Shown here: in pieces, positions 11,591 to 43,500 of the stretch
Layout of the letters: each line of letters starts with the position of its first letter
Position numbering within the stretch: the stretch's first letter is position 1
NCBI GenBank assembly: GCA_029962745.1
Contig: CM057153.1
Span: 37,181,662-37,245,661, forward strand
Direction: 5' to 3'
DNA length: 64,000 bases
DNA from: Echinometra lucunter
Lineage: Eukaryota > Echinodermata > Echinoidea > Camarodonta > Echinometridae
Position numbers and translations under genes: made by a program
Notes under the pieces: generated by a model
What the model saw: only the letters and a program-made list of their open reading frames with translations
Told to the model about the DNA's origin: nothing
Databases searched by the model: none

Positions 11591-11651
11591 ATGGCATTTA
11601 AACGTGTTATAATAAGCTTAGCTGTTGTATTATCATTACATTTTGTATCAG
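11591..11651 (+). CDS. Alk4/5/7: Receptor exon 1: signal peptide
   Basis: The context TTCAAAATGG is a good initiation site. It encodes [20 protein letters not shown], a basic start followed by a hydrophobic core, then the donor TCAG|GTCAGT. The phase (one base over) matches the ectodomain exon 6.5 kb downstream. No other ATG in this frame shortly upstream looks better. Confidence 0.8.
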
Positions 11652-17600: not shown

Positions 17601-20600
17601 TTATGTTGGATCAAAGGTAGACTTCTGACCAGTGTCGTATTTAGAATAAAAGGAATCATTAAAAGGTGCAGTTCATCATAAAAGTAAAAGAAATTACTTT
17701 ATTTTAAAAAACAAATTTTCCAATGATTTCTTTAAGTAAAAATGTGTTCGCAATGTAGGAGTTAACCTGTGATTAATTGCAGTCATCACAAATACACTCA
17801 CTGAAAGATTAATAGAATGATTACTGTATGTACATGCATCAGAGAATAAAGACATTTTGACAGAGGAACAGACTTTCACTAAATGGAATCTGTGAAAATA
17901 TAAAAGAAAGATAATTTTTCTATCCGAGTATAGGTACTGACAAAATATATTAGTATGAAATGTGAAGTTCTTAGATTTGATGTGAGTCCCATTGGTTCTG
18001 GTATTTATATAAAAACTTATCTATAACTTTGTGGGGATGAGTGAGTGAGGAGGATGTAGATGTGTAAAGAATTTTCATTTAATCTTCTTATTGTCTAGAA
18101 AATGGTAACCAATACATTTCATGTTCTTTCTTTTCCACAGGGAGTAATAAAGGCTTGATTTGTTCATGTAACCAAGAGGATTGCTTACTGACAAACAACT
18201 CGTGTGTCATAGAGACAGACCATGGCATATGTGTATTCAGGTTGACACGAGGCAAGTCTCAAGAAGAGATGCGTTTCTTGATGTGTGAGAACGATCCCCA
18301 TGGACCTCAGGAGAGGCTCTTCTCATGTGAGAGTCCTCCCCCTTCCCCACAGTATGTGTCCGTGTGTTGCATCGATTCTAACTACTGCAATGGTGTGCAG
18401 TTTAAAGATTTGCATCTAAGTCCATTGGAACCGTTGGACCCACCGCCAGGTAAATATCAATTTATTTTAGAGGAAATTAACTGAATTTTGAGATTGCATG
18501 TAAGTTTCAACCATTTATATTCATAGACATAGTGGAGATATCTGAGAAGCCTGCATCTTTGAACATTTTCAGATATGTCACCATATACATCTATGAATGC
18601 TGTGAATCGTCATCAGTATCTCATCATTTGTATAAAAAATTCATGGCATTCTCCCAAAGAAAATTGTATATATTTATTCATGCAGTGTCTTGAAGAGGGT
18701 ACATGTAACTGTAGTTCTGTGGCCCTGAAGCATACAGATGAAAACCGAGAGAACCCGAAAAATCTCTTCAAGTTCAAGAAACTTCTGAGCTCTCGGCAAT
18801 TCCCACCAGCCCTTTCCATTTTTTCTTTTCCTTTTGGAAGAATGCATGGTTAAGCCTTTTTGACCTGCATATACAGTATTAATTGCCAACTTAGAGGAAA
18901 AAAAAAACCCAATCTTTTCATGACACTGTTGTCCTTGTGAATCCTATCTGAATATTTTCTTAACTTTTATATTTACAGGTATAGTTTAGCCAATGATTAT
19001 TTGTACATTTATGTACAAATAACTGAGAAATACACATAAAACAAGCAAATAAACACCCCTTTAAGTCCAGGATTTTGAAATACTCTCAAATGAAATACAG
19101 TAAACTGTATTTCAACTACAAGAAAATGACATTTTCTTTATAAGATGGGTATACTTAGTAACAACTTGAGGCATGATAAGTTATGGTCCATTAATCACAA
19201 CAGCGTTCATTTTCAGACTTTGATGTGATTGATAGACCATAACTCATCACGCCTCAGTGATAATGATGTTCTAATTTGCCCATGTAATAGCTAATGTATT
19301 CGTGTTGAATTTGATATCAAATTCTTTGTATTTCACTCGTTATTTTTGGTGTTAAAAGGGCCTGAACTTTAATTTATGATTCTAATTTAGTCCAACTATA
19401 TATCCAGTGTATGCAAGAATATAGAAAATGAAAGAAAAATGAGTCTACAAAATGTACATACATGTATAGTTCTGAATGAAATATGATTGATTGCACATCA
19501 TTAAAGAGAAGTATATTGCCTTGAAATTGGCATTGCTCGATGTTTTTCGAAGCATTACGAATTGTGGTCCATTGATTATAGCAAGGTCTGAAAATTAACC
19601 TTGTTGTCTTCAGTGGACTGTAAATGCCCCAACTATCATGTCTTGTTACTTACATGTATAACCATCTTACCAACATTATTCAATTTTTTTTTAGTTCATG
19701 TACAATTTATGGTATTTCATTTGATACTATTTAAAAAATCTTAACTTAAGTTAAAAGGGAGTTAATTTGCTTGTTTTATGTATGAATTTCTCAGCATGTC
19801 TAAATAACTATTGGCTACAATACACTGTAGGTCAACTTTAGCTGATTGACTATGGAATACATTCAAGATGTTATAAAATTTGTTATAACTACTTGCCAAC
19901 TTGCAAGTAAATGGTAGAATATTTTAGTCAGCAATTATGTGAACCATACATGCTAGATAACTTCATTCATCATTTCTAATTTTTTGTTTTCTTGTGTGTG
20001 AAGTTTGGATGTGAAATGGAGGGCTGTAAGATGAGATTTTGTAATTTGGTATACTAGTCATGACATCAATATTCAGTACATACATGTACATGTATGCAAA
20101 ATGTTTGAAATGAATTTTATGTCCTTCATCTTTCCAGTGTGCAACCTTCAGTTTGATAAAATTTTCTTCTTTTATTTTCTTGTTTGTTTGTTTGTTTGTT
20201 TTGGTTTTAATTTTTTGTTTTGCTTTGTCCAAGAATTATTCTGCAATAACAGATAATATTTATCTGGTATATACCGGTACATTTTGTACATGCACGCCAT
20301 GACATAATTCTGCCAGTGACTTGAGTGAGTGCAATCAAGTATTCCTAAAATACTAGAGGCAATTTTCAATAAGAAAGAAAACACTATTTTGCATGGTTGG
20401 TTTGATGTCTCAATATCTCAAACGGTGGCAGGAAGTGAATAAGCATGATAATTGATCAATCATGAGGCATTAGTTATTTTAACGAGAAGCCTAACAGGGT
20501 TTTCTGGGCCCCCGTGTTGTTACTACATGTAGTACAGCTTGACAGGTGCGACAGTACTCTTTAAAGGGGACTAACCACTTCATTATATTTTTTCTGCTTC

Positions 20601-23600
20601 GGGTATTTGGAGGTCAATGGCAGTATTTTTCATTGAAAATATAAACTTTAGTTATTATTTAGGGAAGAGATATTATAGGGTCATATGGTCATATACCCTG
20701 ATGAAAGAAAAAGCAAGTTGCAATTTTTTTTAGATACACTCATATAAAAAATTTGCCTACACTGGGATAATCTCTGAATCAACATGTGTGTATGCCTACA
20801 TGTACATGTACATGTAGATTACATGTAGAACCATTCAATCATAGATGCTCTTCATTTTTTTTCTTATTTTATTATCTTATGGAGTTTGAGGGATGATTTG
20901 ATTGACACCCCCAGGCCCCAGATGATATACAAAATTGTTATTATTGTTTACAAGTCCCTTTCAATAAACATTTTGTCAACTGTGTATTAGTAATGTTTTT
21001 GATGCATTTTACAGGTCTGTTTGTAAATTGTATTTTACAGATCTCTCTTTAAGTTGTTTTTGTTTTTGTTTTTTGTTTTTTTGAAGAAAAAAAATACTTG
21101 CATTGAAAAATCATCTTCATCACTTTTAGTAATTATCAGTTATTTGTGAGCTAGGAACTATTCACTGCTTCTTTTAGGCAATAAAACTACACATGTACAT
21201 GTACATGTACATGTTGCCAGAGACATATTTTTGATGGATTTTGTACTAAAAATTTGGACAATTAATATTTACACACTGTAGCAATTTTTTTCAAATGCTT
21301 TCTCTAGAGAGCATACTTGGACTGCAAGACCTTGGAAGCTTTAAAAGTTTCTCTGAAAAAGAGCTTAGCTTTGTAAAGAGTGTTCACGTAAGGAGCATTG
21401 CTTGCATTCATGAACACAATACGCTTCCAGGCTAGCAGGGGTGTAGAAGTGAGCCTGCTGGCATTGTATGCTTCCCTCGTAAAATCATAGTACCAACAAC
21501 AGTACACAATTCATTGTGAGCTGTACATTCATACAGCGCCAAATTACACACATCAATCGCAGCAAAAGGACGCATTGCATCCAAAGGGTTTGCATGTGTA
21601 ATTGTGCGGTTGCAACCACATTGCACATTAGATATTCAGCTCCCTGCTACATTTATTCTGTTGTGAAGTGCATGGGAACATATTCTACTCCATGCTCTCT
21701 ATACATGTAGTCCCACACCATGCATCATTACACCCCAAATGTGTTTCACCTAGTGCTACATGTGCAGAGCTCTGATTTCATTTTTTTTTTTGGTCCACAT
21801 TAACATACAATGCCAAGGTTTCCATGGTTCTGCTACTATTTGTCGACAGAGATTGAATCATGACTAATGTCTCAGGTTCTAATTCATAATGAAGAAAAAA
21901 CACAAATGTAACCCCTTCCTTTGCTTTCCACCTGGTCTTTGAGCAATGCACATGTGTCACAAACACTGTAAATGTTCATGTACATGTACATGTAGGTACA
22001 GTACTTGTTTGAAGATTGTTTAAATGTTGATGGGAAAAGGGAATGAATTGAAAAATTTGCTGAATATGGTCTCGTATACATGTAATTGTTCTTGAATAAG
22101 AAGATATATATTACCATTCTTGTTTTTATTGATAAAAGTAATGATCAAGATTTTAAGAAAATTCCAAATTTAGGTTGAATTGTTCGTTTCTGTGTTTGAA
22201 AATATAAGGCCTGTAGATTACGTGTATTTCTCTTTCAAGAATAAAAAACAAACAAAAACAAAAAAATATACATATTGTTATTTTATTGTTTAGAATAGTT
22301 TTGATAAGTTGCTAGGCCTACATGTACATGTATATTAAAAGCACTCCGTCAAGATCTTATCTTGTTAAGAACCTCAAATTAGACATTTTGGTCAATTTGA
22401 GAATGGTTCAAATTTGTTAGAAGTTACTGTATAGTGTACTTGAATATAGCGATGATAATACTAAACCTTTCTTAAATAGTGGTTATCACATAGAACATCT
22501 TTTATGTACATGCTGCATGGGGATAAGGAGTGAGGATACATGTTCATGTAGTGAAAGATTGGAGGGATGGATTGAAATTTTAGGGTCTGTTATTCTCTTT
22601 GCATTGAGCCCTGTGTAATTTTTAATGATTATTTTGGGGTCCGGATAGAGATCTGGGGGTCCAGGTGTCCTGGGCGTGTATTGGTGTGAGCCCAGCCTTG
22701 GCAGGAGAGAAAATGTGTAAAATGATGACCTGAATCTGTGCTGGTACATGAATGTGCTGATGAAAAGTACATTCATACATTGTACATGTACATGACGTTC
22801 ATACACATGAGAATATATTTGTGTGTGCGCAGTGCGCACTTGCGCATGTGCACTGCATTACAGGCTGTGTTATGTTGAATGCCGAGCTGTAAACATTGGG
22901 TATGCCATCACTCAGTCATACAGAGGTTATCTGCAAAATAGTAGAGCGTACCTTTGCTCTGTGATTGTTTGTTCTTTATTAGACTGCTGTGAATGTCAAT
23001 ATTCCATTTTGAGGGACAGTGAGAGTTACCTTGAACATTAATAAAGCCTGGATATGCGAAAGAAAAGATGCTGTACATGAACTGCCATGTATATGTAAAT
23101 GTTCTTGTAAATATTACTTGTGTGGTTGGTTCTTGTTTTACTTGTGTATCACTGGGGGAAGATAAATGAAATGTATAAAGATGAGAATATTTTTGTTGAA
23201 ATGTACCAAATTGAGACTATAGTTTCATGCTTATTAATTTCATACAATTTAATGGCCTACATGTACAAAATGCATAATAAGCGGACAAGTTTGGGATCAT
23301 TTTGTGTGGAAATCTTGAAGGAAGCATACATGTAGGATAGCCTAGGTGCATATAAATTGTGTTTTTTATCTACATGTCGGAGACTGCTTCTGTATACAAT
23401 AATGACAGGTCAAATTGCTCTTGGGGCTGTGCAGTAGTGGGAGTGAAGTACTGCATTGTGTCTTGGATGTCAATAATAGAAGAGAAATGAAATTATAATT
23501 ACTGGTCAGCTTAGAATGATAAGGCTGAAGGGATGGGTAATCTCAATTTTAAAGGCTGATTAAGATATCCAGCAGCAAACCCTGGCGGAAAACCCCCTCA

Positions 23601-26600
23601 TTTTTTTCCGTGTTGACATACACTGTATGGCATGGTAAACTGCGCCACTTCTGATAATGAAATGTGCATTAACACATCAATAATAGTTTCTGCTCAAATA
23701 GACATTTTGCCAAAAGTTGCAGACAATCTTCTTGATCATGGTTTTCACTAAATTTATAAGAACTGATTGGTCCACACCTTTTTGCTGCCAGGTGGCAAAA
23801 ATGATAATTTTCCTTGTCTTTTCTTTTTTAACTTATATACATGTACCATTCATTTTTGTCTCACCCACCAAAGGTGAAGGCAAGACTAAAGGATCCAAAT
23901 GGCATCCATCCGTCCGTTGTTCGTCCATCACAAATGTTAAAGTTTACCTGCAAGACTCTCTTATGATGCATAACTTGGCAACTGTTGCTGCAATGGCAAC
24001 CAAACTTGGGTGATAGATGCACTTGGGGTGCATTCATGTTATGATGCCTTTGGAGGTCACATGGTAAGGTCAAAGGTCATTTGAGGTCAAACATTAAAGT
24101 TTACCTGCAAGACTCTCTTATGACAGATAACTTTGCAACCGTCCCTTACTTTTCAACCAAACTTGGGTTATAGATGCAGTAATGGGACCTGCATGTAATG
24201 GTGCTGTCGGAGGTCACGTGATAAGGTCAAAGGTCATTTGAGGTCATATGTTAAAGTTTACCTGCATGACTCTCTTATGACGCATAACTTGGCAACTGTT
24301 GCTGCAATGGCAACCAAACTTTGGTGATAGATGCACTTGGGGTGCATTCATGTTATGATGCCTTTGGAGGTCACATGGTAAGGTCAAAGGTCATTTGAGG
24401 TCAAACATTAAAGTTTACCTGCAAGACTCTCTTATGACAGATAACTTTGCAACCGTCCCTTACTTTTCAACCGAACTTGGGTTATAGATGCAGTAATGGG
24501 ACCTGCATGTAATGGTGCTGTCGGAGGTCACGTGATAAGGTCTAGGGTCATTTGAGGTCATATGTTAAAGTTTACCTGCAAGACTCTCTTATGACACATA
24601 CATGTAACTCTGCACATGTTGCTGCAATAGCAACCAAACTTGAGAAATAGATGCACTTGGGGTACATTCATGTTATGGTGCTTTCGGAGGTCACATGGTG
24701 AAGTCAAAGGTCATTTCCTTGTTAAAAAACGTGAGGATTTGCCCCATCGTATGTAAAGAACATGGTTCTCGCCAGTACATAACACCCATGGTTCCAATAC
24801 CATGCGTAAAGGATTTCAGACAAGGAAGAACCATGTGTGAAATTGCTTCACCATGCGTGGCAACAAGGGTAATAAAAATATTGGAGTATATACTCCTAAC
24901 AATAATGACTAATGTCACAGATTGTTTTGCTTTTTGGCAATGTATTTTTACTTTTATGCCATTAGTAGACAACTCCTGCTTACCAAGAAGTATTTTTCAT
25001 CCTTTTGCTGTAGCATATACTGCTGCCACACCTAACTTTAGGTGTTATTCCGTAAAATTTCCGAAAATTACGCGCTTTGCGCAGAGGGGGAACCATGTGT
25101 GGATTTTTTTCTAGTGAGAACCCTGTTAAAGAAGCCTTTATAAATAGATCTTAATGTATGTCAGGCTCTTCAGGCCAGTAGTGTTTCAGAAAGATTTAAT
25201 AGCTGCGACCAAAGCAATCAGCTGTTTTCTTTTGGCTTCCAAATCACAGTTACTCTACCATAGTTGCCATATACAATATATGTTTTGTTTGACAACAACC
25301 TTGATATTGCATTTAAGTAAAAATCCTATTTTGAGATGCAAAAATACGTGGAAGATAATTTTTAAAAAAAATGTAAATTGCAGGGTTGTATGTTCCCTAT
25401 CTTTTTGTATGTTCTTGAATTAAAACTTGGAGGAATGGGAATACATGTATATTCTGAAAGTGCTTTTTTCAGAAAGAGTTTTTGTATTTGTTTTAATGCA
25501 GCTCACAAGGGTTTGTTCAATTAGAATTGCTTACTGCTCCCACTATTTGTTGTTCCTCCTGCAGTGAAGTTCTTGGGTTTTAGAAAGCAAAAGAAGCCAC
25601 TTTCCTCTTTCATCCTTCTGTGATAGGTGATTTAAAATGTTTTCATTTTTCCATCAAGATATTAACGATCCTTCAGAGAACTGTCATCTGTTTGAAAGGA
25701 AATTTGGATTCTTCCTTCCTTGACAGACCCTGTCTCGTTACAGTTTGTCTTGAAAATTAATGGCTCCCTCTTTGTCAGGTGTTTGTGCATCTCCGATGCA
25801 TGTAGGAAAGGGCCTGTTTTCATTTGGTTCTTATGAACATGAGAGAATGTGAATGAGAAAACTTCAGAAGAGGTTTTGTAGACCAACAGGATCAGTGTGG
25901 AAATTATCACAGGAAATTGATGTCTGCAAAGGAGACAAGTCTTCCTCTCTCTCAAGCTAGCATGTAGATTAAAGGCAGTCTTAGCCATCATGTCCTGAAT
26001 TTACAATACAGGTTTACTTTAAACCATGTGGTCTAAACTATGGTGTATGCCTCCAATGTGGACTAAAAACAGGCAAAGTAAAGCACATTACTGTTTGTCC
26101 ATTGAACAAGAGGACATACATGTACGCTAAAGTACACTTATGGAGGTTTAGATGTAAACTTTTTTTTTGTGAATTCAGGCCTAGAGGTCATTTACATGTA
26201 CCCTTGAATTGTTCTGACCATCAGGAGCCTCGACTGAACCATTATTTTTTTAACAATGAAAAATCTGTCACAGAAGAGAGAAAAAAAAAAAAACCTTGAC
26301 AAAGAAAAAGTTGACATTGTATTACAATTTTGCTTCATGAGCATGAATCACTCTTACAGATGGAATATGTTACTATCAGCCTGTTTTCTTTTGATTCTGT
26401 TCACTTTCTTTTATTTGCATAATTTCTGTTCAATCTCTTGACAGTGGATTTGAAGAAAATGGTTATTAGAAGATGTAAAGTTGAAGATAGTACCTGATTG
26501 AGAGAAATTCCTTGAATATTTCAAGCATGAGAATATGAAAGCTTTTTTTTTTTCAGTGTGGGGTGAATTTCTATAGCCAAGATCATCTACATGTATTACA

Positions 26601-29600
26601 ATGCTAGAAACATACACATGAATGAAAGTGAATATCACATACTGTACACCTCACAAAAATGTTTTGTTAAGTACGTGTATTTGTGATCTAACAAAATTTG
26701 CATGCCTCAAAATGATTGAATGATAACATAAAACAATGAACATTCCACAATGGATTTTTAAAAAATGGAAATACAGTCATTTAACTACTCACAAGAGGTC
26801 CATGTTATGAAAGATACTACTTACATGTAAAAGTACATGTAGGCCTATACATTTATTTCTACTGGTATACACACACGTGTAAATGTAACTTTAGCTCAGC
26901 ATCTTGATGACTAATTAAATACATGTATGCAATAATGCAAACACCCATATTTTTGTAACATCTATTATTTCTTTCTTGATGGATTATGGACCATGGAAAA
27001 TAGCCTATTAAGAAGAGAATGTAGGTCCACAATTTGTGAATTTTTGTAAGTTAGACCAGAGACATTTACCTGTTTAAAGGCATGGGCTAGCTTTGTGAGC
27101 AGCCAATTTAAAAAATTCTCAAACTAAGATGAAACATGTATGAGTACTTGTAGATGTATTTTTACTCAAAAACCCTGAAACCAACCGTAATTTGGAATGA
27201 AAAACTGTTGGTAAGACGCAAACCGCGATTTTATTATTTATGGTCTCGGAGATGGGAAAAAACAGGACTGTTTTGCTTGAGTTTAAAAAAATCTGTTATC
27301 TGCCTCCCTTTGTGTGATATGCCAATACACACAGTACGGTCCGGTGAGCCATGCGCGCACTCCTTACATGTACGTCTAGTCTCTGTGCAACTGACCCTTA
27401 AATATTTTTCAAACATTGGTTCACATTTCTAGTATTTAAAAATACTTCCTGTGGATATTATACTATGAATGTTTCAGACTGGTATTTTTACACTATAACC
27501 CTAATGCTTAACCCATTTTCAAGTAGCAAAATGAGTTTTTAAAAAATTATAACAATGTTAACCAATGCCTTTAAACTGTAAGCCTGCATACACGTATATT
27601 ACATGAACATGTGGACCATTTTCATTGCATACGTAATTTTTTTTTTAAATGATGCGCTTTTTCGGGGGGGGGGGGGGAGGGGATGTTAAAATGAAAATCT
27701 TAAAGTTTTGATAGATTAACTTGTAAATTTAAGACCATGTAAAAAGAAAAGGATGAGTAAAATGCTAAAACAGATGTAAAACACATAGGTCATGTGTCAT
27801 GAACTTGCCTCCCAAAAAGGGTGGTGCTGTTACATTTTGTGCTTTCAAACTGAAGTATTTCTTAATTTTTATCAGAACCATTGAGGCTACCATAGTAAGT
27901 TTGGTATTGTCTAAAAGCTGTATTAACAAGCAATTAGTCTGCCAAGTTTTACGGCTATAGGTAATATATAACTTAAATTACAGCCTTTTATATCTGGAAG
28001 GCCAGGGGTGGTGCCGGAAGCGGCGCTCCTGGAAGCGGCGCTGTATGTACAAAATGAATGGGAAAATTCAGATTTCAGTGCATTTTTTTGAAAAATGTTG
28101 ATATTTTGTCAAAACTTGTCATCTGACTTCATATTGTACCAAATTAAAGCTAATATACTCCTCTTTACAGCTCTATGATTGAAAAGTGAATTTAGCTAAG
28201 CAATGGTAGTGTTTAAAACTGAAATACTTGGAATTTTAGGTAAAAAATGGTACTGCCTGTACAAATTCAATACGGAACTTATATTTTTTCAATAGTTTTG
28301 GAAAAATGTCCATATTTTGGTCAAAACTTGCAATATAGCTTCACTTCTGGTTCCAAATTAAAGCTATTATATTCAGCTTTACTATCTTATAATTGACAAA
28401 TAAGCATGACTGTCATGAATACATTATAGAACACTTGATATACGGTGGTTCATTAAAGTGTTTGATAATTTATGCAAAAATCTTTATATTTTTTAGTTAT
28501 TACATGATCATAGACCCAAGACAATTATACCTTGCTGAAAAGGTCTGAATGTCTTCTGTAAGGATATAACATTAGAACTGCCCTAGGAGTATCACAGAAA
28601 AGGTTGTGTTGAAAATAATGAGATAATAAAAATTATTACAATTTTCATTTTAATGTTTACAATTTTTTTCCATCTTACATCCTGTGCCATCTTTTATTGC
28701 ATATTTAGATTCTCCTTGTAATTTCGTTTCAGAAAATATATACTTTTGCTATTACAGGGTTCATACTTGAGGAGATATCAGCTTTCAAAGTTAGAAGTAC
28801 ACTACTGAAGGTAGAATCACCATGTAAAGTAGGCAACCTTGTGACACATGGCCCATAACACAAAACGAAAAATGGAAATAAAAATGCCAAAGTTCGCAGC
28901 AAGTGATTGAGTTTTGCGCTATAGGCATTCATATTGAGAAGGATGTTAGCTATTCATCAAGCAGTACACCTTTCAACTACACTTGACCTTTAATCCTTGT
29001 ACTTTAAAAAGCCTTTAAGGTCAGAAGATGTGATGAATTCCTGCTTGTCCTCAGCATTCGTGTCAATTTTCCAAAAGTCTGGTAGGAAATCTAATAACCG
29101 GAAAAGCAATGACTCAAATTTCCTGTAACTCGTATGTTTTGAGGAATAATTCGCAGCAGTGTTGTTTCAGATCAGCTGCGTTGTACGGATGAGCCCATTG
29201 TGCAGGACATGTCCTTTACACACGCATTTCCAGTAGGGCAGGTAACACTTTTCTGTGGATTTATGTGGATATTTTGGTGGGATATTCGGACTATACATTC
29301 ATGCTCTGTGGAATCTCTTCTGGTCTTGCATCCATTCTTTGGAATACTGCATTTTGTTGTTGTTTTTGGAGGACAAATGTGAGAGTGGCTTGATATAAAG
29401 TTATGACATTATAGGCATCTGCAGTGTTATGAAAACTTATTCAATATACAAGTACATGTATGCATATATGTAGCGTACGTGTATGTTCGACAGCTCATGA
29501 GTTGTGTTCATAGATATCTTCAGCACTCTATTTTTTCCCCTGTGGATATATGTGGGAACCACTTATACAGTGTAAATATATCAAGACTGATGAAGGAGTG

Positions 29601-32600
29601 GTAGATTCTTTATCATTCTTAGTTTGGAGACTCGTAAATTTGCATTGAATTGAAGACTTGAATTGAATCAGAGAGTCTGTCTTGTGAGGCACTTTGTTTC
29701 AAGATGTTCACTACATCAACCACACAACCCCGTTCAAAGCGTAGAACCACCACCATAGGCTCCACCACGCTCTCTGTGGAAGACCTGCTTCGGTACCACA
29801 GAGAAAAGACTTACAATCAATCCCTCCTCTTTCCTCCTCCCACTTACCCGCCCGATCTAGACCAATGCCGGCAAGTTCCGCAGCGAGGACCATGTAATAT
29901 GCAGGAGAAGCGGTTCTTCTACAATGTGACAAGTGCCAGCTGTCAGGAGTTCATCTATGGTGGGTGCGAAGGCAATGACAACCGCTTCATGGACGAGGAG
30001 TCCTGCATGGATGCCTGTAAAGGTAAGTCTTAGAGTGTATGTCTTATCATGATACATGTACCTATAGTCACATAAATCAGAGCAATACCAGATTGACGAT
30101 AGACCAAACAAAACTTGCATTACCCCCCCCCCCCCCCCTCCCTTGAGAAGCAGTTTTTAGAATTTGAATACTGTGCAGATTTTCTGGTTTTACTGTTTTG
30201 TATGCACAAAGGTAAAATATTGGATTTTGATGTGTGATACTTTTGTGGGGTGTAGTAATATACAAGTACATGTAGATTGCAAGGAAAAAGAAAATGAAAC
30301 AGTTCCATGTACATACATGTACATGGATACTTGCCCAAGGGGAGTATGTAAATATGTGGTTTTTCAGAGTGGTTTTTAATCCTTGCCATACATGTACATG
30401 TATCTTTATCCTATTTGATGAAATGATGGAGCATTGATATGAAAAAGAAGAAGGAGAAGAAGGAGAAGGAGGAGGAGAAGAAGGAAGAAGGAAGAAGAAG
30501 AAAAGAAGAAAGAAGGAAGAAGGAAGAAGAAGAAGAAAGAAGGAAGAAGAAGAAGAAAGAAGAAAGAAGGAAAGAAGGAAGAAGGAAGAAGGAAGAAGAA
30601 GAAAGAAGAAAGAAGGAAGAAGAAAGAAGAAAGAAGAAAGAAGAAGATGAGAAATACAAGTTCATGCGACTGGTATATTTAATCAGCTGAGTCTGAAATT
30701 TAGAAGTAGTAGGTCTAGGAGACTCTATGTCTGTTGGCCTCAAGGTGATTTGAAGCCCATATAAGAAAAGTATTTTTACCATCCTTCCCTCGTACCCTCT
30801 CACCATTTTGTTATAGAAGAAAGAAATGTGTGTTTCAAATGATAAGGTACAGTAGATATGGACAGTGTGGGATTAGGACAAGATTTAATGGTCCATGTTA
30901 TTGAATCTAAAGTACCTTATAAAGTATTTCAGTGCCCCCCCCCCCCTCTGGCACAAAAAGTGATCCCTCAAACTCAAAGATTTCCTTTGAAGGAATCATC
31001 CTCTCTTGTAATTTCCCTCTTGTATATGCCCCACCTTCCATTCCACTATTACCCAGTTGTCTCCACTGTCTTACTTTGGTTGTTTCCTCTTCTAAACCTT
31101 AACAAATTTGAAAGTATATTGTGTCTCTCCCACATCCTTCCCTTATTTCCTCTTCGGAACACAAATATACGTGTACAGTTGCGTTAGTGTGTTGGGACAG
31201 TCGTTTCATGAAATCTAAAAGTTTTTGTTCTATTATTTTGTTTAAAGGAATTCATGAACTTTAAAAGGCCATGCCTTGTAAACATGGCCTTTCTTACAAT
31301 TTAGAATTCTTCAGGTGATCTTCTATTTTCAATGTAAATGCATCTATTATCTATCGGTGACCACTTAATGTTGTTTTTATTATTCACATTATTATGCTTG
31401 TACATGTACTTATGGGTCTAATTTTTTTAAAGATTATATTTATATCAGATGATAAAAATTGGATTCTTGAGCTTATAATGACAGAACTTTTAACTTCAAA
31501 TGTTGATCAAATGTTTTCTAGTGAACAACATATTTTTCTTTATGGGAATGGGGAGTACAATGTGTAGTGGTTGTCATAAGAAAGAAAATTTGAAGGAGGG
31601 AGGTTTATTGAAAGCCAGCATGTACATGTCCATTGAAACATTGACTAACAGTAGACATGTACATGTACGTTTACCTACCAGGATGCATCCCTAATCCTGT
31701 CTTCAGCAAGGATGAAACAGTAGACCCAAGTGTACACTTGTCTAGTTCTTTGTAACCTTCTTTATAACAAGGTCAAGGGTGGAAGAAGCTTTGCTAATGT
31801 TGTCTAGACAGAGCTCTTTTGTGAGTTCCTTCAATCTGCATCCTGCCTATTGTTGTTGCAATTGTTTTTGTATTATGTAGCAATTGTAGCATCATCCGTA
31901 GCCAAAACAGACCAAAGCAGTCGTACTGCATATTACCTAACTACTTATGGGTGGGGGTGGGGGGGCTTATACATGTACCTACAATGCAGCCACAGTTTGG
32001 AAAGTCAGTTGTGTAGATGTCTTATCATAATACTATGACCCACTTAGATCCATTGCAAAACTGCTGTCCCAGATGTTTCCAGGGGTCATGAGGAACAGAT
32101 CATGAAAATATCTCTGAAAATGTTGTCTTGTCTACCACACTGATTACAGTGATTTTATATCGTCAATTCACATGTACTACTAAAGATGGAATTAGTTTAC
32201 TGGATGAATATGTTGGTCTTGGATTCATCCAAGATTTAAGAGTTATTTACATTTTTTTGCAGTCGAGGATTGTAAATGAATATATTTCAATTGATTTTTA
32301 TGCCTCTTACCATCGGTCCGAAGGTGGTGCCAGAGGCATTATGCTTTGGGGTAATGGGTTGTCTGTTTGTCCGTCCATCCTGCTTTTTTGTTAATGCAAT
32401 ATCTCAAGAATCATTTGAGGCATTAATTTCATACTTGGTCCTAGTATGTACATGTATCACCATAGGTAGATGATCCAAATAGATTTTGGGGTATTTAGGT
32501 CAAAGGTCATAGGCATCTGACGTATTTGCAAAAATAATGTTTCCATGATATCTTGGCATATATGGCGGAAATTTTAGTCAAAGATGAGTGAAATATATTT

Positions 32601-35600
32601 TTAGGTGGAAGAGGTAATAGTAACTAGTATGTAGAGCTCTGTAGTAGAGATGTGCATAAATTGAAAAAATGCGTGGGATGCAGAGGCCTAATTTTTTTCG
32701 ATGGCACAGGGTCACATTGCTTTTGTTCTAAATGTTGCTTAAAGGAGAAGTCTAGGTGATTTCTGTAAGCATGGATCATAAAGAGAAAAAATTCAGCAGC
32801 TAGAAAATGTCTTACATGTACTTACCCGACATACATGTACCCTAGGATTACTGAGTAATCAACAATTAACTTGTATAAACAGTACTTCTAGTACGAGCCC
32901 ATTTTCATCCACAATACAGTTCGCACCCAGGCCCAGTGACATGGCTAATGCACCGCAGGCAGGCCAGGCGATGCAAGCGATATGCGTGTACGACATTCCG
33001 GCTCGAAGTGGTCTTCGCATACTTTCTTTAACTTCGAAAATTTCTAAGTTATGAAATCGAATTTGTCCGTTCTAATATCATTAATCCATCAGGCACATCT
33101 CTCCCTGTCCGTCAGGGGATTTGGGATTGCAAAAAAACTTCTCTTTGGAACAGAACTGGTTTGATTTGCAAACCCAAAAGCTAGACATATCGGCATTTTG
33201 CATAGAGAATGTGCAGAGAATAAGTGTGCAGAGAATAAGTGCGCATGCGCAGTGCAACTGTATCGCCTACGGCCCTATGTCACACGACCAATGACCATAT
33301 TTGGGTTTCGGTGGGAAAGTCAATTATTCGGAGTAAGAAAGCCAACACTTAATCGGTATTTAAAAATCACAGAACTCACTTTGATAAATGAAAGTAGCAT
33401 TGTCTGTTAGCGTAAATTTTAAGCTTTATAGTGTAATTTTAATAAAAATCGTCTGGACTTCTCCTTTAATATATATATCCTGCCTTATATCATTTGTATT
33501 CTGTAACTGTGAGAGAGAAGGTTCTTGTGAATTGATACAGTACTCTTGGTCTCTCTGGTTCCCATCACATCAACCATGCTAATTTCTTTTGAATTATTTA
33601 CAATGGGTGTCAGTGTGATATCTTTGCAGCTGTTAAATTGCAAGTTTTCTGCTTGAGTTCTTTCTCATCGGACATGTATATACTGTTCATAATTGTGCAC
33701 CATAGAAGAATACTACCATGTAGGTTACTTTAACATGTTGAAAATAATTCATATGGGCTATTCCATGATTAAGTGGACATCGCCCTAAACTTTATTGAAA
33801 ATAATTCATATGGGCTATTCCATGATTAAGTGGACATCGCCCTAAACTTTATTTTTGCTCTTTCTCAAATTCAGGTCAATTGTAGTGGTTAAAACTCATA
33901 CAGAAATTGTAAATGCAAGGAGGTTTCATACTCACCCCCCCGAAAAAATTTGTTCCAAATGTCTCCTTATAGCAGAATCCGAACCATACAAAGACTTACA
34001 TATATGGGACTATGCACAGTTTTTTAGACTTAGAAAACTATCGGTTCATTTGTAAATTTTCAGTTGGATAACCTGAAGGACATTGTGTCTCACCAAATTA
34101 AAAGAAAATATTACAAAATAAGTTGCTGAAAAGGTATAAAAATCTAAAATATGTAGTGCTGGACAAAGTGTAACATGACTAACCGTAATGTGACTAACCA
34201 AGATTTTGGGGTCTACTTAAAAAAACAGAGAGGAAAACTTTTAAATTTTTGTGGATAAACATTTATCATCATATCAGAAGTAAAGCTGATATGGCTCTAA
34301 GTTCGAGGTACAACACAGTAAGGAAATTTTTTTTTTCAAAAGCATTGCTAATTGTTTGGTGTCCTTTTTTTTGTAACGTAACTACCCATGGTCAAATGTT
34401 CTCATTACAGCTCCGGCATTGTCCAGTTGCTTTTTATTTTTTTATGTATTGTAGACCTTGGGTGGGAGAATATGTTTCAAGATTAGGACTAGAAATGAAA
34501 TGGATATTTATTTAGCTGCATCAAAAGGTATAACATTTGCTCAAATGTAACGTTACTAATCATGGAATTGCCCATATACACTGTACATTATATGAATTCA
34601 CAAGTTGCTTTGTTAAGTGCACTGGAGAAAGTTTCCAATTGTATGAAATGTATGACAATATTTCAGAGTTTATCAATTTTCTCGGTTAGTTGAAACAACA
34701 GTGAAAGCTTCTGTTTGCTGCCAGTGTCAAGTGACCTTTATTTTTAGAATGCTTCCCTCTTATGAAATAGCAGGTCTGTATTAACCAGTTGAGTACAGTT
34801 TGATTCGGGTATAACATGCATTATCGGGCATAGCATTCAATTGTTTAAATAATAGTGCCTGTAGTGTAGTTGTCATATTGTGCCTTTCTCAAAAGCAAAG
34901 TACAGATCCAAGTCACCCAATTAGAAATTAATGGAACTTCCACAAATTTTGAAAGTAGGTTCAGATTATTTTCAGTTTCAGTCTGTGAAATTATTTAATA
35001 ATTGTACTAATTCACTGAAGAAAATGGTTGCAGACAATTTGCAAAAGTTTAGGTGACTAAGTTTGTACTTTAACTTTGCATTATTTGTGGGCACATTCAT
35101 TCACTACATGTCCTGTGGTATATTTTTAATTTCAGTTTTTCTTGTGAACGTCTTTCTTGAACTACAGATTACCAGCCTGGTGGACCTCAGCCAGGCATCA
35201 GCATAGCTGGCGTGGCAGCGCTAGTGGCAGGACCTATTTGTCTGATCTGTATATCAGTGCACCCTCTACCTGTTGCTCAGACAGAGTCCATCATGCAGGG
35301 ATGATGGACATGGTCCTATAGAAACTGGATCCAATGAGAAACTAATCCCATCTCAGCAGCTTCGTGATCTAGTGGATCCAACTACATCTGGATCAGGATC
35401 AGGTAAATAAAGGAATAACTCTAAGATGGGAGAGGGGAGAAAAGAATTTTTAGTATGCATAAGGAAATTTCAGTCAGCACCTTAGAGTTTTGCCAAGTGC
35501 ATGATAATATCTTGAAAAGGTGACTGAAGAAGGATAAGGTGAAATAAGGAGTGTAGCGAAGATCATTTCGTTGACTTCTAGATGGACATGATCATATGCA

Positions 35601-37527
35601 GGAAATCAGATCCAAAGATAAGCTGATCCCATTTCAAAAGCTTTAAATGATCTGATAGATCGTAGTACATCTGGCTCAGAATTAGGTAAATCAAAAAGAA
35701 AAAGAAAGATGGAGAAGGAGAAAAAAGAAAAAAAAGAAGAATGAACAAAAAAGCTGCAAAGAAAGTATGAAGTTATGCCTCTCGTTATTTTTCTAGTGTA
35801 CCTTATATATTGAAAACTAAAGAAAAATCGGGGGGGGGGGGGGGTGAAAAGAATGGGCACAATATAATTTTCTTTGAATGTTAAGACCATGAATTTTAAA
35901 GGTTTTTTTTTTTTTTTTTTATATAGGGCTACTTTAAATTACATTATGAAGTTCATGCTTATGTATTGAAAAAAGGGGAAAGGAGAGTTAAGTAGGTGAG
36001 TTTTCAGTAGTTTTTACTGGCCTACCTAAGACACACATTGCATCTTTAGCAATTTAGAATAACTTAAGGCAAACAGCCCCACCCCCTCTCTAGTTCCACC
36101 TTCTCTCTCTATATGAAAATCAAAAAAATTAAAACAATAATTTAAAAAAAGGGGGATTAATGGAAAAAGACTAGAGAAGATAGATTACAAGCAGACAGAC
36201 ACAACATGCATCCCTGAAGATATGCATTTTAAATCCATATAAGTAAGATGACTTGAGGGTTTTCCCCCACTTTAACCAAGAATATCAATGGTCTGTTATT
36301 TCTTTATTTCATCAGTACTTTCTAGAGTCTCGTTATAGCCATAATGCTTAAAAACCATATATGTAAATGATAGATCACTACTTGATATACTCAGATTTGT
36401 CTGGTCATTCCCCTCATGGAGTGCTTCCATGCATTGAATAAAATGAGCCTTGATTAATCAGTCTGTCTATCTCACTACAGTACATTACTAAAGATAGACT
36501 CTGAGCAGGTGGTTACCTGTAGCTTCATTTTTTAAACAATAGTCTACGTACATCTTGTCTGCAAGCTTATGATATATTATGACACTCAACAAAATGTCAT
36601 TATAGTTAAAGCATAGATCTACCTGCATACTAGGTATTGAAAGGCAGTATTTAACTTTTCTAAATGTACATTGTGTGTTAAAATAAGTTAGAATTATGGG
36701 GAACAAGATTATGTAAAGTTATTGACACAGTCTGAGCAGACTTCTTTTTATGTGAATGCAACAAATGCTTTGTTAACCTGTTTCCTTCGGGAACTGAGTG
36801 GTCCCTGTATTAAGTCTATGGAATATTGAGAATTCGGTAGTCAACACATCAAAGACGCTGGTGAGATACAACAAAAACCAGATGGAAGCAGTGGAGATGA
36901 AATGATAGTTCATTTTTTTCTCTACTGTATTTTGTCTGACCTGTTGACAACCGATTGGTAGGGATATGAGATAGGATGCCTCAAACAGATACAGTGCTAC
37001 TTGTATCACCCAATGAATGTTTCTTTGGTGGGAATGATAAAAATGCTGATATCCAGATTTATTAAGCAGTTTGAGATGGTTTTAATGGGTTTTTTTTAAG
37101 CTGATCTTGAATATAATGGAAATCAGTTTTAAGAAAAATTGGACTTATGTTATTCTAAATTGCTAAAGATGCAATGTATGATTTAGATAGAGAGTAAAAA
37201 CTAATGAAAGCTTGCTGAAAACAATTTAGACTGAAGGGCTCCTTCTCACATTTGCCATATGGGAAACCAAGTGTTCACCCCTTTCTCTCTTCGTGGAACT
37301 AGTAATCTCATTCAGAACACTCATACTAGAGTGATTTATTTCTATTTCATTGTAGAAAGATTGACCTCTTCTGCTTTGCTTATAAATAGTTTACAAATGC
37401 AAGTAAAATGAAGTCACCTGACAGGCATAATAAGAAGGGTATACTGTATCGTGTATTAATAACTACAAAAGGACAAGATTTTAGGTGGTTTTCTTGTGGA
37501 ACACATTTGCTGATTGTTTATTAATTC

Positions 37528-37575
<48 letters not shown>

Positions 37576-40500
37576 TTTCACCCGTCTCTTAACAGGCTTA
37601 CCCTTGCTGGTTCAGCGTACCATTGCAAGACAGATCGTCATTCAGGACTGCATTGGGAAAGGGCGGTATGGTGAGGTGTACAAGGGCAAATGGAGAGGCG
37701 AGTCTGTTGCCGTCAAGATCTTCAGCTCTCGTGAAGAGCGGTCCTGGTTCCGTGAAGCAGAGATCTACCAGACCGTGATGCTGCGCCATGAGAACATCCT
37801 GGGATTCATAGCCGCAGACAATAAAGGTATACAATCGGTCCAGGATAATGGTTTCTGAAGGTTTACTTGAAGAGGACCAATCACCAAAGATATTTTAGTT
37901 GGATTGTTGTTGCCACTGAGGTGGAGCGAGACTACGGGATCCGTAGCGATGTCTGTCCATCCTTCCGTAACACTTATGAAACTTGAATAACTTTGGAACC
38001 ATTTGCCCGTTTGTAACCAAACTTGATGGTAGATGCCTCACAGTGACCTTGATGTTATTTTGGGGTCAAAGGTCACATATGTAGGTCAGAGGACAATTTA
38101 GGTAAAGTGTTAGGCTGGAATTCACAAAGGTGGTTTAAATTTAGTCCATGGTTTAGGCAAATTTTTTGGTACAAGTGCGCTTGATTTAGCGCGTACACTA
38201 AGATAGGTCCAATGATAAACGCGCGCGTGTGGCAAAGGGCGCTAGATTTACGCTTGTTGCCATGGTTTAGACCACGGTTTATGTAAATTCATGCTTAGAC
38301 TGATTTACATAAACCGTGGTCTAAACCATGGCAACAAGCATGAATTTACATAAACCGTGGTTTAAACCATGGTAACAAGCGTAAATTTGGCGCCCTTTGC
38401 CACACGCGCGCGTTTATCATTGGACCTTTCTTAGTGTACACGCTAAATCAAGCGCACTTACACCACAAAATTTGCCTAAACCATGGACTAATTTAAACCA
38501 CCTTTGTGAATTCCGGCCTTAAAGTTTACCTGCAAGTTTCTACTCGGGTCAGTAACTTTGCAACCATTAGCCTGTTTGTAACCAAACTTGGATGGTAGAT
38601 GCCCTATAGGTAAAAGGTACAAATACTCCAATCACACAACCAATTCTTGGTATTTCACTAAAAATCAGAATTAATTTACTAGAATGATTGCACGCAAATA
38701 GGGCAAGACACATTATGGCTATTGCTTTGTTTTGGTTCTGTGTGCTGGTGGGCTATATTCAAAATATCAGCCTGAATGTACTACCGTATTGCTAAATTTC
38801 AAGTTAAAGTAAGCTCTAATTGAAGGTAAACCTGCCTTTAGGTATATACTTGACACACTTTTCACTCATGTATTTGCATTGAACCCAAGTCAGATTTTGG
38901 TACTCTGCTCAGGGTTATATATTTTTTTGCTATTTTCCTCATACCCCTTAGATTTCTTATCCTAAATATGGCCCCTTTTTGCAGATAATGGAACATAAAC
39001 CCACCTGACCCGAGTCATTGACTACCATGAGAATAGGTCTCTCTGTTACTATCTGAGTGCTCATGTCATTGATGTACCAGGCATGCTGAGAAGGCTGTGT
39101 CCATGAAATAGTTTACTACAGCTCTCATAACCTTTAAACATATGTGTGATATTCTAATTATTCATCTCATATTAACAGACAATGGAACATGGACTCAGCT
39201 GATCCTAGTAATTGCCATTAAAATGGATCTCTCTTTAATAATTATCTGAATGCTCACATGATTGAAGTACCAGACATGCTGAGAATGGCTCTGTCTGTGA
39301 AATACTCGTACCATCTTGCTCATAAACACCAAATAATTATATGATATCTATCTGTTATTTTGACAGACAATGGAACATGGACTCAGCTGATCCTTGTCAG
39401 TGACTACCACGAGAATGGGTCTCTCTTTGACTATCTCAATGCTCACTCGATTGATGTACCAGGCATGCTGAGAATGGCTCTGTCCATTGCCACTGGGCTG
39501 GCCCATCTACACATGGAGATCATGGGCATGCAAGGTAGGGTATAGGCTTATTCAGTTTTCCAGCAGAATTATCCAGCAGAAGACCCCCGTGGTACCCCCC
39601 CCCCCCCCCCCCCCACTATTTGTTTAGTGTTTAATGTATGGTTCCGTAAACCAGTGCACTTATGATAATGAAATACGCGTTATAGGGTCAACTGCTCAAA
39701 TAAAAGAATTGTACCAAAAGTTGTGCAGAAAAACTCATGATGTCATATTTTGCACTAACTCTATAATGATTTGATTGGTCCACACGTTTTTGTCTCCAGG
39801 AGGCAGAAAAATGCCTCTTGCATCGGTGTTCTTTTCTCTTTTTTTTGCAGCCTCATATCCCATTCATTTGTACACACATACAAAAAAAAAACATGGTTTT
39901 TCCGCATTGTATGTCAATGAGCCTAAACACATACTGGAAAAGGAAACCTGGTCAAACCTTTCTCTCATCTGTTAAGAGCCAGAATGGCATTAACCTAATA
40001 ATGTCAGTTTAATTTCTCTTTTTTTCAGCCTCTCAATAGGTAGTATAGAGATTGCTTGTGTCAAAGAAAATGGTCTGTTTAGGCAGGTGGTCTTTAATAT
40101 ACATCGGACACTTAAGTTTCAGTGAGAAACCTTATCCAAGGGATACAAAATTTGGTCACTTACTCAGGTAGATTTCACTGCATTCACCTGATTAGCAATG
40201 CATCTACTTCATCATAAACCCTTTTTAGTGTCTAAATCAGTTTTTCTAAAACTAGATCTTGATATATTTGTTAAAATTAATCATTCATGTGATTTTTGTC
40301 TCGCCCACCGGAGGTGAAGGCGAGACTAAGGGATCCAAATGTCGTCCGTCCGTCGTCCGTCCGTCGTCCGTCCGTCGTCCGTCCGTCGTCCGTCCGTCGT
40401 CCGTCCGTCGTCCGTCCGTCGTCCGTCCGTCCGTCCGTCCGTCACAAACGTTATGAAAGATAACTTGGCAACCGTGACTCACTTTTCAACCAAACTTGGG

Positions 40501-43500
40501 TTGTAGATGCACTAAGGGGACCTGCATGTTATGGTCCAGTCAGAGGTCACATGGTAAGGTCAAAGGTCATTTCAGGTCAAACGTTAAAGTTTACGTGCAA
40601 GACTCTCTTATGACACAAAACTCTGCAACCGTGACTCACTTTTCAACCAAACTTGGGTTGTAGATGCCCTAAGCGGACCTGCATGTTATGCTCTAGTCAG
40701 AGGTCACATGGTAAGGTCAAAGGTCATTTTAGGTCAAACGTTAAAGTTTACGTGCAAGACTCTCTTATGACACAAAACTCTGCAACCGTGACTCACTTTT
40801 CAACCAAACTTGGGTTGTAGATGCCCTAAGCGGACCTGCATGTTATGCTCTAGTCAGAGGTCACATGGTAAGGTCAAAGGTCATTTTAGGTCAAACGTTA
40901 AAATTTACGTGCAAGACTCTCTTATGACACAAAACTCTGCAACTGTGTGACACTGTTCAATCAAACTTGGGTTGTAGATGCACTAAGGGGACCTGCATCT
41001 TATTGTCCAGTCAGAGGTCACATGGTAAGGTCAAAGGTCATTTCAGGTCAAATGTTAAAGTTGACGTGCAAGACTCTCTTATCACACATAACTTTGCAAC
41101 CGTGACTCACTTTTCAACCAAACTTGGGTTGTAGATGCACTGAGGGGACCTGCATGTTATGGTCCAGTCAGAGGTCACATGGTAAGGTCAAAGGTCATTT
41201 CAGGTCAAACGTTGAAGTTTACGTGCAAGACTCTCTTATGACTCAAAACTCTGCAACCGTGTGACACTTATCTATCAAACTTGGGTTGTCGATGCACTAA
41301 GGGGCCCTGCATGTTATGGTCCAGTCATAGGTCACATGGTAAGGTCAAAGGTCATTTCAGGTCAAACATTAAAGTTTACGTGCAAGACTCTCTTATGACA
41401 CAAACTCTGCAACCATGTGACACTTATCTATCAAACTTGGGTTGTAGATGCACTAAGGGGACCTGCATGTTATGGTCCAGTCAGAGGTCACATGGTCAGG
41501 TCAAAGGTCATCATACAATGTTACTCATATCAGAGGGATGAGAGTAGAAGCAGGGAAAGTACATGCACGTGAAAATGCAGTACCATTTCATAAAAAACCC
41601 TTCTCATATTTTATCAAATGTTATTCCATCCCAGTTATTTCACAATGAGCTTTCAATACAGTTCTGTTGTGTGCCATCACAGATCGCGATATTTCTAGTT
41701 ATTTTCACAAGTGGGCGAGACACAACATCGCAAACGCCTTGTTGTTTTATATGAGCATCAAATGGTATACTATTAATATGAAAAGCAACATACTATAAAT
41801 TCCTTTGAATATTTGTGTTTCTTTAGGTAAACCAGCCATTGCTCACCGAGACATCAAGTCCAAGAACATCTTGGTCAAACGCAATGGCCAGTGTGCCATT
41901 GCTGACTTGGGGCTAGCGGTCAGACACGATTCTGTCACAGATACAGTGGATATCTTCCCCAACAACCGAATAGGTCAGTAAGAACACATCACCGTGATAG
42001 TTGTGGTGATAAAAGCATTGGTGATGGTTGTGGTGGTGGCAGGGTTCTCAAATGAATTTGATCAGATTTTCTTGTGATTCAGGGGTGGCATTTTGAGAAA
42101 CTATGTTATCTTTTATGTTAGTGACAACAATTTAAGTTGTCATAACAAACTGAAATAGTGTGAAACAAATACTTATTCTTTGGTGCTTGCACAGATGCTT
42201 GCTCAACTTGCTATGCACCGAAATTTTACCAATAACTTTTCGAACTTTATATTTCATTATTTGGACTGAGGCATTCATTTTAATTTTTCAAGCTAGATAA
42301 TGCAGGTGTTTGAGACAATATTGCTTATGACGTTGGCCATATTTGATGGTAATAAGTAATATCGTCGGTGGGCTGTTAAAACCTTGTATCTCAAAATTAA
42401 AAAAATTTTGAGGACAGCTCAGAAAAAGCTCTATTTTAGAGTTATAACATAAGTGGCAACCTTCTTTTGCCTGGAAAGAGTTCTCTACAGGAATTAGGAG
42501 ACTGTTTTCAGAAAATATGAGGTTGCCACCATTGCCGTAATTTGAAAATACAGCTTTTTCTGAGCTGTCCTCAAAATTTTTTTAATTTGCTAGCATTATA
42601 TGCAGAAGGGCAGAAGGGCTCGTTGAGGGCTTGCATACCTCTGGGCAATAATTAAGGACTTTACTTTTGCGAGCCCTGGCCTATAGTTAACCATATCTTT
42701 CCTCAACTCTGTGCTTCGTATTCCCTTCTCTTTTTCTTTTAATCCTAAAAATAATTGTATTTATTCCATTCGTTTTGTATATTATACTAATTTCTTCATG
42801 TTTGTGGTCAAATAAATAATAATGATAAGAAGAAAAAGAAGAAGAATTGGAGTTGCATTTTCCAATCCTGCATTCATGACATCTCTGCCGTAGGCACAAA
42901 GCGCTACATGGCCCCAGAGGTACTCGATGATACCATCAACATGAACCATTTTGACTCCTTCAAGAGGGCTGATGTCTACTCCTTTGGATTAGTGCTCTGG
43001 GAGATCGGTAGAAGATGCTCAGTATTTGGTAAGATTCCACTCAGATTCAGTCAGATAATTGTGCTCTCTATGATCAAAAGAATGAGGAAAAGGGTAGAGG
43101 GATACACTTTTCAGGTATTTGTTTAATTTCAAGACCCAACAGCCTCTGTTTTCAGATTTTACCAGGTTTCATATTGTACATAGCATTGTATTGTTTGAGA
43201 GCCAGGAGGTATAACTCTCTGTGAAATAAAATGCAGTTATTCTGGTTCCATATTGTAGCTCTCAGTAGGTGTTTAGCCATGCATCGTGTGGCTTGCAGAA
43301 GGTTGCAAATAAATGCATGGTCTGCATATTTATTTTAAAAATAAGTATTTTTGAAAGTTTTGACCTCTCTTATACTGCATTGACACAACAGAATTCATTC
43401 TCTTTATATCTGTTTTGATAACAGTGATAGACTAACTTATGTTACTATTTCTTGTCATAAAACTAAAAATGTTAATGATTTTATCTAATATTTGTTTTAA

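Follow-up and report, generated by a model that had tools for sequence, protein, structure and literature searches.

What sets the extracellular part of a type I TGF-beta receptor, and can a whole domain be added to it? Type I receptors are treated as one fixed architecture. They bind ligand through a three-finger domain, and their GS box is a substrate of the type II receptor. The question is raised by a 64-kb stretch of the genome of the sea urchin Echinometra lucunter (contig CM057153.1; hereafter the window), which contains no N, has a G+C content of 36.6% and holds on its + strand a whole ALK4/5/7 type I receptor gene (11591-45687, a span of 34 kb). In frame between the exon for the ligand-binding ectodomain (18141-18449) and that for the transmembrane segment and the beginning of the GS box (35168-35402), this gene encodes a Kunitz domain. 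Our analysis suggests that this gene of the echinoderm Alk4/5/7 receptor probably possesses a 54-codon, phase 1-1 Kunitz exon, which is predicted to be spliced into the receptor message and which likely serves as a non-inhibitory docking or spacer module.

A Kunitz domain within an Alk4/5/7 receptor gene

The exons of the window gene were placed by splice signals and reading frame, and by tblastn with proteins of relatives. The spliced model compared with Pfam was built with the two-exon cassette of an original prediction for this locus, discussed below, and with an X at a frame shift in the membrane exon; it matches Pkinase (PF00069, E 5.8e-35), TGF_beta_GS (PF08515, E 4.4e-13) and Kunitz_BPTI (PF00014, 62.6 bits, E 3.9e-17), the last match reaching 66.3 bits for the Kunitz exon alone. 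A GS box followed by a receptor kinase identifies the product as a type I receptor. Among solved structures the first kinase exon is best matched by ALK5 (E 8.3e-42), ahead of ALK2 (1.2e-36) and BMPR1B (9.7e-35), and in a tree of kinase columns the window sequence groups with proteins named Alk4/5/7 and TGF-beta receptor type-1-like, is nested within the echinoids and is 97% identical to the kinase of Lytechinus variegatus. The Activin_recp family (PF01064), reached by 6 of 16 aligned receptors, was not reached by the window protein, whose ectodomain displays ten cysteines, the motif CCxDxxYCN and an exon-level tblastn match to a named receptor. The window gene shares with vertebrate ALK5, ALK4 and ALK7 (TGFBR1, ACVR1B, ACVR1C) a likely signal peptide, the cysteine-rich ectodomain, the GS box, the kinase and the residues of the L45 loop, which we take to be the motif NGTWTQL in the exon at 39367-39534. 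It differs from them in its Kunitz domain, which was found in none of 127 other receptors examined, vertebrates included.

The six cysteines of the window domain are spaced 8/15/7/12/3, and the claim that a Kunitz domain of canonical cysteine spacing resides in an ALK4/5/7 gene was thus upheld. As predicted from its splice signals, the domain is encoded by a single exon (29861-30022) with a length divisible by three and a phase 1 intron on either side, and the forms with and without this exon are both open as far as position 35259.

Distribution and probable origin of the Kunitz receptors

At least 12 type I receptors with a Kunitz domain before the membrane were found among the matches listed, and they come from all five living classes of echinoderms: the echinoids Lytechinus pictus (P0002) and Diadema antillarum (P0004), the asteroids Patiria, Asterias and Acanthaster, the ophiuroid Amphiura, the holothurian Apostichopus (P0123, an entry named Alk4/5/7) and the crinoids Antedon and Anneissia, together with P0003, P0014 and P0016, which stand in the kinase tree with the echinoids, Amphiura and Apostichopus, respectively. 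Look-ups gave the class of six of these species. One search covered the best 120 of 1277 matches, and, because the protein collection was clustered at 90% identity, other urchins or isoforms may be hidden in it; Strongylocentrotus and cidaroids were not among the matches listed. When 139 receptors with the GS/kinase motif were fetched, the six-cysteine pattern was present in 12 (P0123 being counted by hand) and not in 127; the latter include isoform X2 of L. variegatus (P0005) and a truncated protein that groups with the sea cucumber (P0124), the other named ones being non-echinoderm. Alignment A2 has 16 members, 11 of which were expected to contain a Kunitz domain, and Pfam detected it in 11. 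The survey of Alk4/5/7 orthologues that had been suggested for this locus therefore gave a positive answer in every echinoderm class and a negative one in the three hemichordate proteins (Ptychodera, Glandiceps, Saccoglossus) and four amphioxus proteins examined. Where the GS stretch should be, the Apostichopus entry P0123 has what reads like unrelated sequence, probably owing to a misannotated exon or a frame shift in the record.

The kinase tree comprised 30 rows, an intended coral row that lacked the start motif having been skipped, and its only BMP receptor outgroup was one octopus ACVR1. Echinoderms formed one clade in it (support 100/98), and the Kunitz trait changed once, with P0005, an isoform, and P0124, truncated, excluded from the count. 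Relationships among phyla are left open by the backbone of the tree, which does not by itself set the direction of this change; because the domain is absent from hemichordates and the other animals examined, we read the change as a gain. The insertion has the appearance of a clean molecular synapomorphy for the phylum, and we propose a single event in the echinoderm stem, in which exon shuffling would have brought the Kunitz exon into a phase 1 intron.

Extent of the Kunitz cassette

The original prediction drew the cassette larger, as two exons (29171-29241 and 29704-30022) that would add 130 residues, a stalk plus the Kunitz domain, to the full receptor. The Kunitz exon stands, and the other parts find little echo in relatives: the first exon, of 71 bases, was found in 0 of the 12 Kunitz receptors and the stalk in one, P0002 of L. 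pictus. An acceptor internal to the larger exon (CTTACCCGCCCGATCTAG/ACCAATGC, the slash marking the junction), with its AG at 29859-29860, gives G/AC CAA TGC and thereby the junction PPP-DQC, as in Diadema; in P0004 and P0003 the ectodomain, ending in PPP or PP, runs straight into the Kunitz domain. From the end of the ectodomain to the first Kunitz cysteine there are 17-21 residues in all 11 Kunitz receptors that have an ectodomain, a distance that contradicts the longer cassette in 11 of the 12 relatives; in the window it measures 21 residues in the 54-codon form versus about 97 in the two-exon form. Relatives locate the beginning of the Kunitz exon at 29861, so that the cassette which they support comprises a single phase 1-1 exon of 54 codons. 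The acceptor tracts point the same way, since the pyrimidine fraction from -20 to -3 is 0.72 at 29861 and 0.67-0.83 at the other eight acceptors of the gene, as against 0.61 at 29171 and 0.56 at 29704.

The longer cassette is in frame, and the 71-base exon is the only segment of 18450-29690 to pass a scan whose thresholds were set at that exon's own values, 0 segments passing in two overlapping control stretches. Its stalk is joined to a Kunitz domain in L. pictus P0002, where 36 of 52 positions are identical to the window, including 13 of the last 14, which lie beside the acceptor, where the splice signal itself would be constrained. The P0002 model, however, starts at the equivalent of the ATG at 29704 and has no ectodomain, unlike the other 11. 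A direct join of exon 2 to 29704 was rejected, being out of frame and interrupted by four stops. The activating glutamine change in the cloned Alk4/5/7 of Paracentrotus was reported at residue 265 (PMC2772021). In the window the same glutamine is predicted at residue 214 with the Kunitz exon skipped, at 268 with the 54-codon exon and at 344 with the two-exon cassette, and the Paracentrotus numbering, judged from this one number, agrees with the short form. We consider it improbable that the full receptor carries the 130-residue addition, and a form comprising ectodomain, stalk and Kunitz domain finds no support among the 12 Kunitz receptors. Some urchin transcripts may include an extended Kunitz exon.

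Predicted inclusion and possible skipping of the Kunitz exon

The ATG that opens the extended exon at 29704, which is also where P0002 begins, raises the alternative that the Kunitz exon is a separate nested gene or a stray exon fused to the receptor by annotation software. Such an artifact is hardly credible, as the identical fusion occurs in twelve proteins over five classes, and three of these are whole open reading frames on contigs too short for the gene. The unbroken frames of P0003, P0014 and P0016 comprise 621, 567 and 568 codons, and their contigs are no longer than 3706, 2053 and 3298 bases, respectively; because the window gene extends over 34 kb, they are most simply spliced transcripts, and their source label, lgn, presumably denotes assemblies of public reads. 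The twelve fused relatives, together with the Pfam score, led us to reject both a nested gene and a chance reading frame, and they bear out the assignment of the Kunitz domain to the receptor itself.

Isoform X2 of L. variegatus (P0005) joins exon 2 to the membrane exon and leaves the Kunitz domain out, which suggests that the Kunitz exon can be skipped to give a shorter receptor. Along with the open frames of both window forms, this isoform agrees with the expectation that a symmetric cassette keeps either form in frame. APP and APLP2 are single-pass membrane proteins with a skippable phase 1-1 Kunitz (KPI) exon, and their KPI domain resembles the receptor domain both in its phase 1-1 exon, predicted here, and in fold, APPI being the closest solved fold. 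The KPI domain of APP inhibits proteases with an Arg at P1, and APP is no kinase receptor; the receptor Kunitz domain lacks an inhibitory loop of this kind.

Conservation of the fold and loss of antiprotease residues

All six cysteines are found in the 12 relatives and the window, the interval from the second cysteine to the third being one residue longer in three of the 12, and the invariant columns of the 13 sequences consist of these cysteines plus Gly, Tyr, Gly, Asn and Phe. The best of five AlphaFold2 models of the 53 Kunitz residues, which had a mean predicted local distance difference test score (pLDDT) of 75.9, superimposed on APPI and BPTI with a TM-score of 0.82. The protease-facing positions have fared differently from the fold. 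Beginning with the window, the P1 residues are N, N, S, G, D, N, T, D, P, T, T, E and E, with Lys or Arg in 0 of the 12 relatives, and P1-P1′ of the window is Asn-Met. At P1′, a small residue (Ala, Gly or Ser) is present in 3 of the 12, the other nine having Met, Leu, Tyr, Asn or Thr. As controls, the same searches supplied 58 domains that fitted the cysteine pattern, from six papilin-type or tick Kunitz proteins matching the query; P1′ was Ala or Gly in 57 of the 58, and P1 was basic in 28. Because 30 of the 58 control domains also lack Lys or Arg, a non-basic P1 alone is no proof, and P1′ is the telling position. At the level of sequence, the combination of Lys or Arg at P1 with a small P1′ was found neither in the window nor in its 12 relatives. 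With antiprotease residues lost and fold residues kept, the domain is likely not a standard inhibitor.

These comparisons bear on the alternative that the domain is an active, membrane-tethered protease inhibitor that shields the receptor or its ligands. HAI-1 and HAI-2 are protease inhibitors without a kinase domain; like the receptor described here, these proteins (SPINT1 and SPINT2) place Kunitz domains outside a transmembrane helix, and HAI-1 ranks second in the list of solved sequences. The receptor fold matches that of inhibitory Kunitz domains, the second Kunitz domain of GASP proteins was reported to have antiprotease activity (PMC3427181), and the crinoid copies retain Gly, and Asterias Ser, at P1′. 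Nonetheless, P1 lacks Lys and Arg throughout, P1′ is not small in most of the relatives, and both positions differ from class to class, whereas the fold residues are constant. We therefore regard inhibition as an unlikely function, though the crinoid Glu-Gly loop may represent an older state.

Free variation of the protease-facing loop and the existence of one isoform without the domain could also be explained if the Kunitz domain were an ancient neutral insertion, devoid of function, with a fold kept since a misfolded receptor would be lost. On this account its retention in all five classes is unexpected, because a symmetric exon could be dropped at no frame cost; the nine named genera were found by having the domain, so losses could be missed. 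In addition, the ligand-binding domain does not exceed the Kunitz domain in conservation from class to class: between-class identity was 42.0% for the Kunitz domain (first to last cysteine), 37.2% for the ectodomain (linker included) and 76.9% for the kinase in 31 pairs of 9 sequences, P0002, P0005, P0017 and P0123 having been left out as incomplete or Kunitz-less, and P0003, P0014 and P0016 having been classed by their later placement in the tree. Neutrality accordingly seems a poor explanation for the Kunitz domain.

A proposed docking or spacer module

An N-glycan sequon lies on the Kunitz hairpin in the window and in 10 of the 12 relatives, the two crinoids being without it. We propose that the Kunitz domain, situated between the ligand-binding domain and the membrane, would lift the former and alter its height and freedom, and that it would offer a new, likely glycosylated surface to ligand, to a co-receptor such as Cripto or betaglycan, or to a matrix partner. 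Sea urchins were reported to have a single Alk4/5/7, acting as the Nodal receptor, with Cripto, betaglycan, Panda and Univin as further players (PMC11239237). Given one such receptor, both Nodal and activin/TGF-beta type signals would pass through its Kunitz-bearing or Kunitz-skipped forms. A ligand-binding or co-receptor role is conceivable, and we put forward docking with Cripto, betaglycan, Panda or Univin as a proposal. More speculative, and in our view rather doubtful, is the possibility that the only Nodal/activin/TGF-beta type I receptor of Echinodermata was rebuilt with the Kunitz domain as a built-in co-receptor site, such that splicing it in or out would switch ligands and partners (Nodal, Univin, Panda, Cripto, betaglycan) and tune axis patterning.

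Kunitz domains are also found in WFIKKN1 and WFIKKN2 (GASP2 and GASP1), which act on TGF-beta family ligands. They differ in being secreted proteins with WAP, follistatin, Ig and NTR domains rather than receptors, and are compared here by architecture, not by descent of the Kunitz domain. GASP proteins were described as assembled by exon shuffling, most of their domains being separated by introns in sea urchin (PMC3427181). The echinoderm architecture combines a Kunitz exon module with a type I receptor, each of a known kind.

In the literature listings consulted, which held no preprints and few subscription papers, none of the titles or abstract openings mentions a receptor of the TGF-beta family with a Kunitz domain. 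The main texts of PMC2772021 and PMC11239237, as distinct from their figures and supplements (among them the receptor-structure figure of PMC2772021), do not use the word Kunitz. The sequences themselves are known already, since databases contain these proteins with a Pfam tag; no description of the architecture was found in these listings. An extra extracellular domain is present in proteins of every living class of a phylum, in the receptor for Nodal signals of a much-studied invertebrate system of axis patterning. It makes testable why one echinoderm receptor serves several ligands, and the existing Paracentrotus constructs probably already contain it.

Several observations weigh against a spliced-in, non-inhibitory Kunitz module in Alk4/5/7. 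The exon model of the window is a prediction from genomic sequence and relatives, most of the named Kunitz-bearing relatives are automatic predictions, and one of them, the L. pictus model, combines stalk and Kunitz domain with no ectodomain. Only two of the five AlphaFold2 models of the isolated domain exceed a pLDDT of 70, the others ranging down to 56.3, and the full-length model of P0003 (mean pLDDT 44.6) is too poor for use. The small P1′ residues of the crinoids and Asterias make an inhibitory past, or an unusual target protease, possible. No experiment on a receptor Kunitz domain was found in the literature listings. Finally, the reading frame of the membrane exon shifts at about 35260 (35255-35262), where relatives are open, and the copy as given consequently encodes no intact receptor. 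The hydrophobic segment is present in this exon despite the shift, and all kinase exons are open; because the neighboring exons are intact, our guess is an assembly error, a damaged allele being a possible alternative source.

Gene structure and other features of the window

The exons of the receptor gene are collected in Table 1.

Table 1. Exons and candidate exons of the Echinometra lucunter Alk4/5/7 gene (positions in the window)
Feature	Position	Strand	Remarks
Exon 1, likely signal peptide	11591-11651	+	Phase 1 donor CAG/GTCAGT, in frame with exon 2; tblastn to N-termini of P0005 (E 0.068, weak), P0003 and P0004
Exon 2, extracellular ligand-binding domain, 10 cysteines	18141-18449	+	Phase 1 to 1; tblastn E 4.7e-45 to L. 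variegatus P0005
Optional exon of the original prediction, 71 bases	29171-29241	+	Phase 1 to 0, in frame; possible, without support in relatives
Possible 5′ extension of Kunitz exon, Ser/Thr-rich stalk	29704-29860	+	Opens with ATG; similarity to L. pictus P0002
Kunitz exon, 162 bases, 54 codons, phase 1-1	29861-30022	+	PF00014; splice signals; start as in Diadema; linker length; AlphaFold2
Juxtamembrane, transmembrane and first GS-box residues, 235 bases	35168-35402	+	tblastn in two frames, 35167-35259 and 35261-35404
GS/kinase exon, GKGRYGEVY	37596-37826	+	Best solved match ALK5
Kinase exon with NGTWTQL	39367-39534	+	Splice signals and frame; tblastn
Kinase exon with HRDIKSKN	41827-41973	+	Splice signals and frame; tblastn
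Kinase exon	42894-43028	+	Splice signals and frame; tblastn
Kinase exon	43624-43754	+	Splice signals and frame; tblastn
Last exon: end of kinase, echinoid-type C-terminal tail, stop	45424-45687	+	tblastn E 4.1e-47 to P0005; end of open reading frame

The C-terminal tail encoded by the last exon is long in echinoid receptors, those of other echinoderms ending in EDVKL or similar. Two decayed tandem copies of the kinase exon at 39367-39534, with stops and shifts, lie directly upstream of it (38984-39091 and 39178-39341), and a decayed partial copy of the membrane/GS exon, with weak tblastn scores, lies just downstream of that exon (35581-35680). Two different introns of the receptor gene each contain an array of a 157-base tandem unit (23934-24716 and 40468-41511), and by eye the two arrays look similar. 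A tRNA search of the window found none, and the open reading frames at 14060-14680 and 24644-25114 matched no Pfam family at E 0.01. Upstream of the receptor gene, 2350-4344 contains two open reading frames of the pyridine nucleotide-disulphide oxidoreductase family (Pyr_redox_2), the second just below the Pfam cut-off, with wording that resembles what we take to be AIFM2/FSP1.

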